Assembly (NCBI GenBank): GCA_003151935.1
Contig: PLYZ01000060.1
Coordinates: 1 to 64,000 of the forward strand
From: Candidatus Dormiibacterota bacterium
Lineage (GTDB): Bacteria; Chloroflexota; Dormibacteria; Dormibacterales; Dormibacteraceae
Direction: 5' to 3'
DNA length: 64,000 nt
Of the stretch, positions 38,618 through 42,707 are shown piece after piece (positions within the stretch are counted from its first letter, which is position 1; each line of letters starts with the position of its first letter). Made by a program: the position numbers and the translations under genes. The notes beneath the pieces are model-generated. The model was not told the origin of the DNA and made no database searches. It saw nothing but the letters and a program-made list of their open reading frames with translations.

Positions 38618-39810
38618 GACCGGCCGCGCGAGCGATGCACGATCGACGCATCCTCTGCGCCTAGCGCGTCCTCCTCTTCCACGTCGATCAGGCGTGGCTG
38701 GAACAGGCGCTGCGCAATCAGGGTCGGGACGACCGCGGACAGGATCACGACCGTCAAGAGCTGCGAGTACTGAGCGCGATTGATGAGGCCGTGGTTGAGG
38801 CCGTAGAGCGCCGAGATGGAGCCGAAAGTCAGGCCGGTGGCCATCAACAGAGTGACGTAGTTGCGGTCACGCCGCCCGACGCCAAAGGCCGCCGCCGTCG
38901 GCCACACGCCCAGCAGCTTGGACGCCATCTTCGTCAGGAACAGGAGGCCGATTCCTCCGGCACCCCCAACGAGGGCCGGCAACGAAATCAGAAGGCCGGC
39001 TCGAAGAAAGAAGAAAGGCGTGAGCAGTGCGAACGCGATTGACCGCATGCGGTCCATGAGCACGCGATCACCCAGGAAGACGCCGGCGCACGCCAGGCCG
39101 ATGAGGTAGGCGGGCAACACAGCTTCACTGCCGGCTGCGCTGGCAAGCCCGCCGAGCCCGAGGAGAACAACGAACAGGAACTTGATCTCGGGCTCGCTCA
39201 CTCGGTGGCCCAGGAATTTCGTCACAAGCTTCAGGGAAGGAGAGACGGCGACGATTGCGATCGCCGTCGCCGCGGCGAAGGCGACGAGAAGCAGGCTGAA
39301 CCCGGCGAAAAGTGCGCCAAGGGCCAGCACAGTTCCCAGGTCGGTTACGAAGCAGGCGGCAAGGATGAGCTTGCCAAGCTCCTGCCGGTTGAGGCCGGTC
39401 TCGACCATCACCGCGTAGACCACCGCCACAGACGTGGTGCTGAGCGCCACCCCGGCGATCTCGGCGGCATGGAGGTTCCAATCGAGCGCGAAATAGGCGA
39501 CCGCAAACGCCGCGGCAAACGGCAGCATGAACGAGACGAAACCGATCGCCAGACTCGCCTTCCAGTGCCGGCGGAGCGACACCGGGTCGATTTCGGCCCC
39601 AGCCAGGAAGGTGAGCGTGATCGAGCCGACGCTCGCCAGAAAAGTCGTGAAAGCCGTCTCCTGGACCAGGCCCGATACGCCAGGTACGTTGCCGGCCAGA
39701 ACTCCGACCAGGATCTCTGCGAGGGCGACTGCAATGCCGGCGCGGATGCTGATCAGCGACGCGATCAGCGCAAGCGCCATCCAGACCGCGGCGATCGCGT
39801 AGACGTTCAT
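38614..39810 (-). CDS. cation:proton antiporter (CPA2/KefB-type)
   Basis: 12-TM profile, LAEILVGVLAGN, FLAGAEIDPVSLRRHWKASL, GVALSTTSVAVVYAVMVETGL. Confidence 0.88.
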   Translation of the reverse strand: MNVYAIAAVWMALALIASLISIRAGIAVALAEILVGVLAGNVPGVSGLVQETAFTTFLASVGSITLTFLAGAEIDPVSLRRHWKASLAIGFVSFMLPFAAAFAVAYFALDWNLHAAEIAGVALSTTSVAVVYAVMVETGLNRQELGKLILAACFVTDLGTVLALGALFAGFSLLLVAFAAATAIAIVAVSPSLKLVTKFLGHRVSEPEIKFLFVVLLGLGGLASAAGSEAVLPAYLIGLACAGVFLGDRVLMDRMRSIAFALLTPFFFLRAGLLISLPALVGGAGGIGLLFLTKMASKLLGVWPTAAAFGVGRRDRNYVTLLMATGLTFGSISALYGLNHGLINRAQYSQLLTVVILSAVVPTLIAQRLFQPRLIDVEEEDALGAEDASIVHRSRGRS

Positions 39811-39814
39811 CAGG

Positions 39815-39855
39815 CTTTCTCCTCTGCCAACTGGTCGTGAATTCGTTGGTAGAGG
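39815..39855 (-). promoter_or_regulatory. riboswitch expression platform: anti-SD helix
   Basis: CCTCTACCAAC (39855-39845) can pair with GTTGGCAGAGG (39831-39821), which includes the SD AGAGGAG of the antiporter ORF. Confidence 0.7.
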
Positions 39856-39914
39856 CCATCAGCCGGAGCCTTCGCTCGGGCGGTTCAAGGAGCGAGCCTC
39901 ATCGCGCCCTCAGG
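39845..39914 (-). ncRNA. fluoride riboswitch (crcB motif)
   Basis: Minus RNA: CCUGAGGGCGCGAUGAGGCUCGCUCCUUGAACCGCCCGAGCGAAGGCUCCGGCUGAUGGCCUCUACCAAC; loop AUGAGGCU pairs with GGCCUCU (pseudoknot), conserved AACCGCC...GGCUGAUG...CUCUACC; preceded by TAAGAT -10 (39926-39921). Confidence 0.9.
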
Positions 39915-39948
39915 CGTTCGATCTTAGCGAAAACCAGCGGTCGGGCGG

Positions 39949-40781: not shown

Positions 40782-40976
40782 GGGTGTCCCGCCGTACGAG
40801 ACCGAGTCAGATTCGCGGCATCGGCGGCCGGAGCCAAGGAAAGGGTGGCGCAGCTAGGAGCGCACTTGAAGTGCGCGACGACGCGGCGACAGGCCCCTTG
40901 ACGCAGGCTTCAGCGCCAGAGGCGCCCGGCCGCCTAGGCCGCGAAGATGCGAAGGTCCTCGTACGGCGGGACACCC
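40782..40976. repeat. 195-bp element with perfect 19-bp terminal inverted repeats (MITE-like or large structured element)
   Basis: GGGTGTCCCGCCGTACGAG (40782-40800) / CTCGTACGGCGGGACACCC (40958-40976); inner arms TTCGCGGC-ATC-GGCGGCCGG (40812-40831) / CCGGCCGCC-TAG-GCCGCGAA (40926-40945). Confidence 0.85.
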
Positions 40977-40988
40977 TATATTCGCGAC

Positions 40989-42707
40989 ATGGAATCACCG
41001 CCCAGCTCGGGCTGGTCCGGCAAGCACGCGGTCGAGCTCTACGTGCGGACCTACACCACCATGCTGCAAAGCTCGGGCGAGATCAAGGTCGAGTCCCTCG
41101 TGCAGGCGCACCTCGGCATGGGCTCGGTGCTGCACCCGCTGGCCGCCGAGCCCCAGACCGACATGGGCGCCCTGCTCTACGCGGTCCGGCGGCTTCCGGA
41201 GGCGATCAGCCGCTGCCGGCACGTGCTGATGGGCCAGAGCCCCCAGGGCTTCCTTGCGGTCCTCCACGCGGACATCCTCAGCTGGCATAGGGTCAAGGCA
41301 CCCGCCCGGCGGCGTCGCTGGTACCACGACGGCAAGAACACGCTGGCCGTGCTCATCGCCTCCGCTTCCGACATCGACGACCTCATCCCCACACTCGTCG
41401 CCTACCAGATCGAGTGGAACAAGCTGCACCGCGCCCTGCAAGACGTCGAGCTCTCGGACGACCAGGCACGGCAGGCAGCGGGGGCCACCGAGGACGACTG
41501 GCACCGCCTGCACGATGCATGGGGAGACTCCTTCGAATCCAACCTGGCGGCGATCAAGCGCGAGGAGTGCAGGATCTTGCTTCGGCTCATCGGCGGGAGC
41601 CATCTCGGGTACGCGCGAAACGCGAGCCGTTGGTGGCTTCCCATCGCGGCGGCGATGGGCGACATGGGCGCGCGCGACGCGCCGATCTATTTCGTGTCGT
41701 CCAACTCACACAGTCTCGTCAACGTGCTGACGGGGGTCGCGCGCGAGTTCGAGAGCGACATCGTCGACTGGATCGGCACTCACCACCCAGAGCTCGATGA
41801 GGAGCGCCGGAAGCTCGAAGCCGGCCATATCCGCGCGTCACGTCACAACTGGCTCTACTACGGTGCGCGCCAGGTTCTCGACCAGCATCCCGATCGCGAG
41901 CGGATGCGCAGGCGGCGATCCGAGATGGAAGCGGCGAACGGGGTCCGGCACATCGCCGCCAAGGGCACCGGCGTCGACTCCGCGGCCCAGGTCTTCATGC
42001 TTTCCAAGCTCGACCCCGCGGCGATCGATCCGCGCGTGGGCTCGGTCGACGAGAAAAAGCTGCGCGCGTCCGATGCGTGCATCCTCAACGTCGACTATCC
42101 GCTCGGCGAGGCCGCGTATCACATCCTCCGGCAGGTGGCCGAGCAGGCCTCCTGGATGAGGGGCCTCTACGTCCTCGGAAAAGCAGCGACGTTGAACGCG
42201 GACGTGGGCGACGTGATGATCCCGAACGTCGTCCACAACGAGCACTCCGGCAACACCTACTGGCTCGCCAACTGCTTCACCGCGGCCGACGTGCAGCCGA
42301 ACCTCGTCTATGGCTCAGCGCTCGACAACCAGCGGGCGGTGACGGTGCGCGGAACCTTTCTTCAGAACCGCGACTACCTCGACTTCTACTACCACGGCCG
42401 CTACACGGTGGTGGAGATGGAGGCCGGGCCGTACCTCGACGCCTGCTACGAGATCGTCCAGCCCGACCGCTACCCGCTGGGCGAGAGCGTCAACATGGCC
42501 CAGGTCAACTTCGACCTCGGGATCGTCCATTACGCGTCGGACACGCCGTACACGCAGGCGCGCACGCTCGGCGCGCGCGGGCTCAGCTATAGAGGAATGG
42601 ATTCCACCTACGCGTCGGCTATCGCCGTCGCGCGGAGGATCCTGCAGCGTGAGGAGGTATTGCTCCCCGAGGCTCCGCCGCCGCCCCCGACGCAGGCGCA
42701 GCGCTGA
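40989..42707 (+). CDS. DUF6909-like protein with nucleoside phosphorylase-superfamily-like C-terminus
   Basis: GLYVLGKAATLNADVGDVMIPNVVHNEHSGNTYWLANCF; VVEMEAGPYLDACYE; family name recalled, not searched. Confidence 0.6.
   Translation: MESPPSSGWSGKHAVELYVRTYTTMLQSSGEIKVESLVQAHLGMGSVLHPLAAEPQTDMGALLYAVRRLPEAISRCRHVLMGQSPQGFLAVLHADILSWHRVKAPARRRRWYHDGKNTLAVLIASASDIDDLIPTLVAYQIEWNKLHRALQDVELSDDQARQAAGATEDDWHRLHDAWGDSFESNLAAIKREECRILLRLIGGSHLGYARNASRWWLPIAAAMGDMGARDAPIYFVSSNSHSLVNVLTGVAREFESDIVDWIGTHHPELDEERRKLEAGHIRASRHNWLYYGARQVLDQHPDRERMRRRRSEMEAANGVRHIAAKGTGVDSAAQVFMLSKLDPAAIDPRVGSVDEKKLRASDACILNVDYPLGEAAYHILRQVAEQASWMRGLYVLGKAATLNADVGDVMIPNVVHNEHSGNTYWLANCFTAADVQPNLVYGSALDNQRAVTVRGTFLQNRDYLDFYYHGRYTVVEMEAGPYLDACYEIVQPDRYPLGESVNMAQVNFDLGIVHYASDTPYTQARTLGARGLSYRGMDSTYASAIAVARRILQREEVLLPEAPPPPPTQAQR

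Follow-up and report, generated by a model that had tools for sequence, protein, structure and literature searches.

On the minus strand of the window (the whole 64,000-nucleotide stretch of Candidatus Dormiibacterota DNA analysed here), the gene for a CPA2-type antiporter is directly preceded by an aptamer of the fluoride riboswitch class. We propose, with a probability of roughly 0.87, that this aptamer belongs to a fluoride riboswitch in the antiporter leader that acts by hiding the Shine-Dalgarno (SD) sequence, and that the protein protects the cell from HF entry. The features on which this reading is built are listed in Table 1.

Table 1. Features of the antiporter gene and its leader (window coordinates)
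Feature	Position	Strand	Remarks
-10-like hexamer TAAGAT	39921..39926	minus	Just before the aptamer
Fluoride riboswitch aptamer	39843..39917	minus	Full-length RF01734 match; 26.2 bits with an independent, homologue-trained model
P1 hairpin GCG-AUGAGGCU-CGC	39892..39905	minus	Loop GAGGC (39900..39896) serves as 5' strand of the pseudoknot
P3 hairpin GCC-C-GAGC-GAAG-GCUC-C-GGC	39862..39881	minus	Longer than the Rfam consensus; read from sequence
3' pseudoknot strand GCCUC	39852..39856	minus	Covaries with the loop strand in eight Dormibacterota leaders
Anti-SD helix, 5' strand CCUCUACCAAC	39845..39855	minus	Overlaps the 3' pseudoknot strand
Anti-SD helix, 3' strand GUUGGCAGAGG	39821..39831	minus	Covers the SD; 0/500 shuffles
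SD AGAGGAG	39819..39825	minus	Precedes the ATG at 39810 by 8 nt; read from sequence
CPA2-type cation/proton antiporter, 398 aa	38614..39810	minus	Membrane domain only; PF00999; Thr156-Asp157, Lys294, Lys298

A fluoride aptamer upstream of the antiporter gene

The sequence quoted in the original prediction of a fluoride aptamer is present on the minus strand, and in a relaxed Rfam scan of the stretch the RF01734 (Fluoride) model aligned to it from end to end (model positions 1-64 of 64, 23.2 bits, E = 2.3e-4). That prediction had counted failure to reach the RF01734 threshold against itself, and although the match is full-length, its score does fall under the gathering score of 34 bits; the default Rfam scan of the whole window reported no families. 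Two extra bases in P1 probably lower the score, as does the long P3, and the RF01734 cut-off is too strict for a GC-rich variant with an extended P3. Covariance models of this kind are also blind to the pseudoknot in scoring. When RF01734 matches were ranked genome-wide, the aptamer came first, 6.5 bits ahead of the runner-up at 16.7 bits.

A covariance model whose training set of 32 sequences comprised 29 leaders of distant homologues and three other RF01734 hits from the same loci also recovered the aptamer (E = 6e-7 over the window). This model gave 27.3 bits to a second genomic candidate, C82:17626-17676, which we rejected: it reached only 12.4 bits with RF01734, has GAUU rather than GAUG and almost no P3, and lies antisense inside an open frame with no gene properly placed downstream. 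Since a chance-like site can score this highly, single scores near 27 bits are no proof of an aptamer, and the proof lies instead in conserved position and covariation.

P1, the pseudoknot, P3 and the location in a 5' leader are shared between the window aptamer and the fluoride riboswitch class (crcB motif, RF01734), as are the cores GAUG and CUGAUGGC..CUAC. The window aptamer differs from the class in its extended P3, in its score below the curated cut-off and in its pseudoknot strands, which are GAGGC/GCCUC as against a consensus of the GGAGU/ACUCC type.

Our homologue search yielded 80 loci with antiporter relatives, the nearest of them labelled Candidatus Dormiibacterota, and 76 had enough upstream DNA to score. 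An aptamer at the Rfam cut-off lies directly upstream of the antiporter gene, on the coding strand, at 43 of these 76 loci; the homologue-trained model found 22 more among the loci below the cut-off, bringing the total to 65/76. Loci with both aptamer and antiporter span records from Dormibacterota, Acidimicrobiia, Chloroflexota, Bacillota, Desulfobacterota-type and Alphaproteobacteria. In the eight Dormibacterota leaders compared, the pairs of P1, P3 and the pseudoknot are 100% formed, with P1 and P3 invariant. Two pseudoknot pairs are altered on both sides (A-U to G-C and G-C to U-G), these leaders being related and of two sequence types, such that the covariation effectively amounts to one or a few events. 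The end-to-end match, the conservation among homologues and the covariation together support the predicted fluoride aptamer, and the two-sided changes in fully paired leaders do the same for the predicted pseudoknot between the P1 loop and the 3' strand.

The putative switch at the Shine-Dalgarno sequence

The TAAGAT that had been proposed as a -10 element before the aptamer is real, and a TANNNT hexamer recurs 17-23 bases ahead of GATG in 14/14 leaders checked. We searched the leader for a matching -35 element, or a standard sigma-70 promoter pair, and found none. The position of TANNNT is fitting for an mRNA that would start just before the aptamer.

The proposed helix masking the SD is formed by CCUCUACCAAC and GUUGGCAGAGG, which pair at 10 of 11 positions with one A-C mismatch. 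Not one of 500 shuffles of the downstream sequence matched it. The close relatives L019, L020 and L105 retain this helix, and a second group of close relatives has it in altered sequence, CCUACCAA with UUGGUAGG. Across the eight leaders the helix is 82% paired, and a sliding control at +3 gave a similar or higher covariation score. Its rarity among shuffles and its retention in relatives agree with the masking that was predicted.

Without fluoride, CCUCUACCAAC, which comprises bases of the pseudoknot 3' strand and those following it, would pair with GUUGGCAGAGG and hide the SD. Binding of fluoride with Mg2+ would capture the strand in the aptamer pseudoknot, which would free the ribosome site and allow the antiporter to be produced. 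In ViennaRNA calculations on the free leader, AGAGG of the SD is paired (unpaired probability at most 0.13). When the aptamer is held, four of the seven SD bases are free (at least 0.92) and GGA is mostly paired (0.11-0.18 unpaired), so the computed release is partial. Of the earlier idea that two mutually exclusive folds turn translation ON with fluoride, the overlapping strands and the conserved helix therefore stand, but the modelled folds release the SD only in part. Because the pseudoknot covaries, TANNNT precedes the aptamer and the anti-SD helix joins the pseudoknot 3' strand to the SD, translation ON with fluoride appears to be the best reading of this leader.

Alternatively, a real aptamer might control transcription, through Rho or a distant terminator, instead of hiding the SD. 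Distant homologues have a hairpin and a U-run after the aptamer, and an intrinsic terminator is present in most of them as well as in the best-studied fluoride riboswitches (PMC11077080, PMC13273304), such that the comparison class has a terminator where the window has a platform predicted to hide the SD. However, we found no terminator-like site in a search of the window leader, the competing helix falls exactly on the SD, and translational fluoride riboswitches are already known (PMC13273304). Transcriptional control of this gene is thus unlikely; in favour of the proposed SD hiding stand the conservation of the anti-SD helix, the missing terminator and the folds computed for the leader.

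In Acidimicrobial relatives, the aptamer strand pairs with a GCUGGUAGG element located 33-43 nt before the antiporter start codon, and a CCCUGCC stretch after this element could pair with GCUGGUAGG in turn. Leaders L022-L030 have a three-part layout of aptamer strand, GCUGGUAGGG element and CCCCUGCC stretch before the SD. Judging from these sequences, the Acidimicrobial layout is probably a different platform from that in the window and also translational.

The antiporter and the known fluoride exporters

The antiporter domain matches PF00999 (Na_H_Exchanger) with 128 bits (E = 5e-37). The original description of the protein as KefB-type holds insofar as it has a CPA2 membrane domain that is distantly KefB-like, but we reject membership in KefB itself (glutathione-regulated K+ efflux). 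The KefB equivalog model gave 38.1 bits against a cut-off of 804 and, at 398 aa against 602 model positions, the protein has no space for the KefB regulatory tail; TIGR00932 scored 99.7 bits, also under its own subfamily cut-off of 238. The nearest solved structure is NapA, aligned over positions 14-380 (E = 1e-9). The window protein shares with KefB/KefC and NapA the CPA2 membrane domain and the conserved Asp157 and Lys298, and Asp157, Lys294 and Lys298 are invariant in 82/82 aligned proteins. Unlike in NapA, the first core Asp is replaced by Thr/Asn: at the corresponding position 156, the 82 proteins have Thr (57), Asn (22), Cys (2) or Asp (1). Loss of the first core Asp is associated in this superfamily with electroneutral exchange. 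On the plus strand, 40947-42707 encodes a 586-aa protein made up almost entirely of DUF6909 (E = 1e-202), diverging from the gene that lies upstream of the antiporter.

No CrcB/Fluc or CLC-F gene had been noticed in the window, and this absence extends to the whole genome (99.6% complete), in which neither CrcB/Fluc above the cut-off nor CLC was found. Among the 42 genomes of the order (this one and 41 order-mates), none has CrcB above the cut-off and one, an order-mate, has CLC. The genome of this Dormibacterota soil bacterium yielded no gene for a known fluoride exporter, which makes the antiporter a good candidate for its fluoride defence. The protein would probably guard the cell against HF entry, and the likeliest way is that it restores the balance of pH and cations.

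The protein might instead export fluoride itself (F-/H+ or HF-coupled) rather than work as a cation/proton antiporter. Such a role would fit the near-absence of CrcB and CLC from the order, the apparent fluoride control of 65/76 family members and the change of the NapA-type core Asp pair to Thr/Asn-Asp with both Lys residues kept; moreover, EriC/CLC-F genes under fluoride riboswitches were initially labelled chloride transporters (PMC7266159). Yet the studied members of the PF00999/CPA2 fold family move Na+ or K+, and a role in pH and cation balance suffices and is the view taken in the literature (PMC11139923). CrcB above the cut-off is also present in 22/50 homologue genomes and CLC in 19/50, so the antiporter is no simple replacement for either, and we rejected it as a general one since many homologue genomes hold both. 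Fluoride export by this protein is therefore improbable, and it is quite improbable that a CPA2 fold moving fluoride or HF constitutes a third kind of fluoride exporter and the main defence of Dormibacterota, where Fluc and CLC-F are undetected.

That an ordinary 5' UTR precedes the gene and resembles the aptamer by chance, as the sub-threshold score and the chance-like genomic site might suggest, is extremely improbable given a position and sequence conserved before orthologues in many phyla, the covariation and the relatives that score far over the threshold.

Other fluoride aptamers and relation to known systems

Likely fluoride aptamers also precede genes in other Dormibacterota for proteins that resemble NADH dehydrogenase subunit 1/hydrogenase membrane subunit, MutS-type proteins and universal stress proteins; known targets of the class include mutS and formate hydrogenlyase (PMC2864571). 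Near the antiporter in several homologue loci, aptamers above the cut-off lie upstream of dynamin-like GTPase genes (L044:2197-2269(-), L048:459-530(-), L067:307-369(+) and L098:302-359(+)); Dynamin_N matched the three tested products with E down to 3e-31, and L048 was assigned by sequence likeness. We found no mention of a fluoride riboswitch together with dynamin in the literature searched, and these genes are possibly an undescribed target of the class. Further above-cut-off aptamers accompany major-facilitator transporter genes near the antiporter at L043:945-1021(+) and L060:1943-2016(-), the latter with a Pfam-confirmed product, and one of 50.6 bits at L094:1119-1187(+) lies ahead of a cytidylate-kinase-like gene.

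The pairing of a fluoride riboswitch with a cation/proton antiporter is already known, with descriptions of such control over K+ or Na+/H+ transport genes going back to 2010. Weinberg et al. (2010) reported the crcB motif ahead of K+ and Cl- transport genes (PMC2864571), and a 2024 review names Na+/H+ antiporters as the next-most common fluoride-riboswitch genes after exporters (PMC11139923, citing Baker 2012). The window has the same arrangement of an aptamer upstream of a cation/proton antiporter but differs from these cases in its lineage, in which CrcB/Fluc and CLC were undetected in nearly all genomes searched. The Rfam cut-off misses what appears to be a GC-rich translational branch of the fluoride riboswitch class, and the leader described here would add a fluoride response to a phylum with neither known exporter detected in nearly all genomes searched. 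As the antiporter family appears to be fluoride-controlled in most of its members, what it transports, whether in the service of pH and cation balance or fluoride itself, merits a test.
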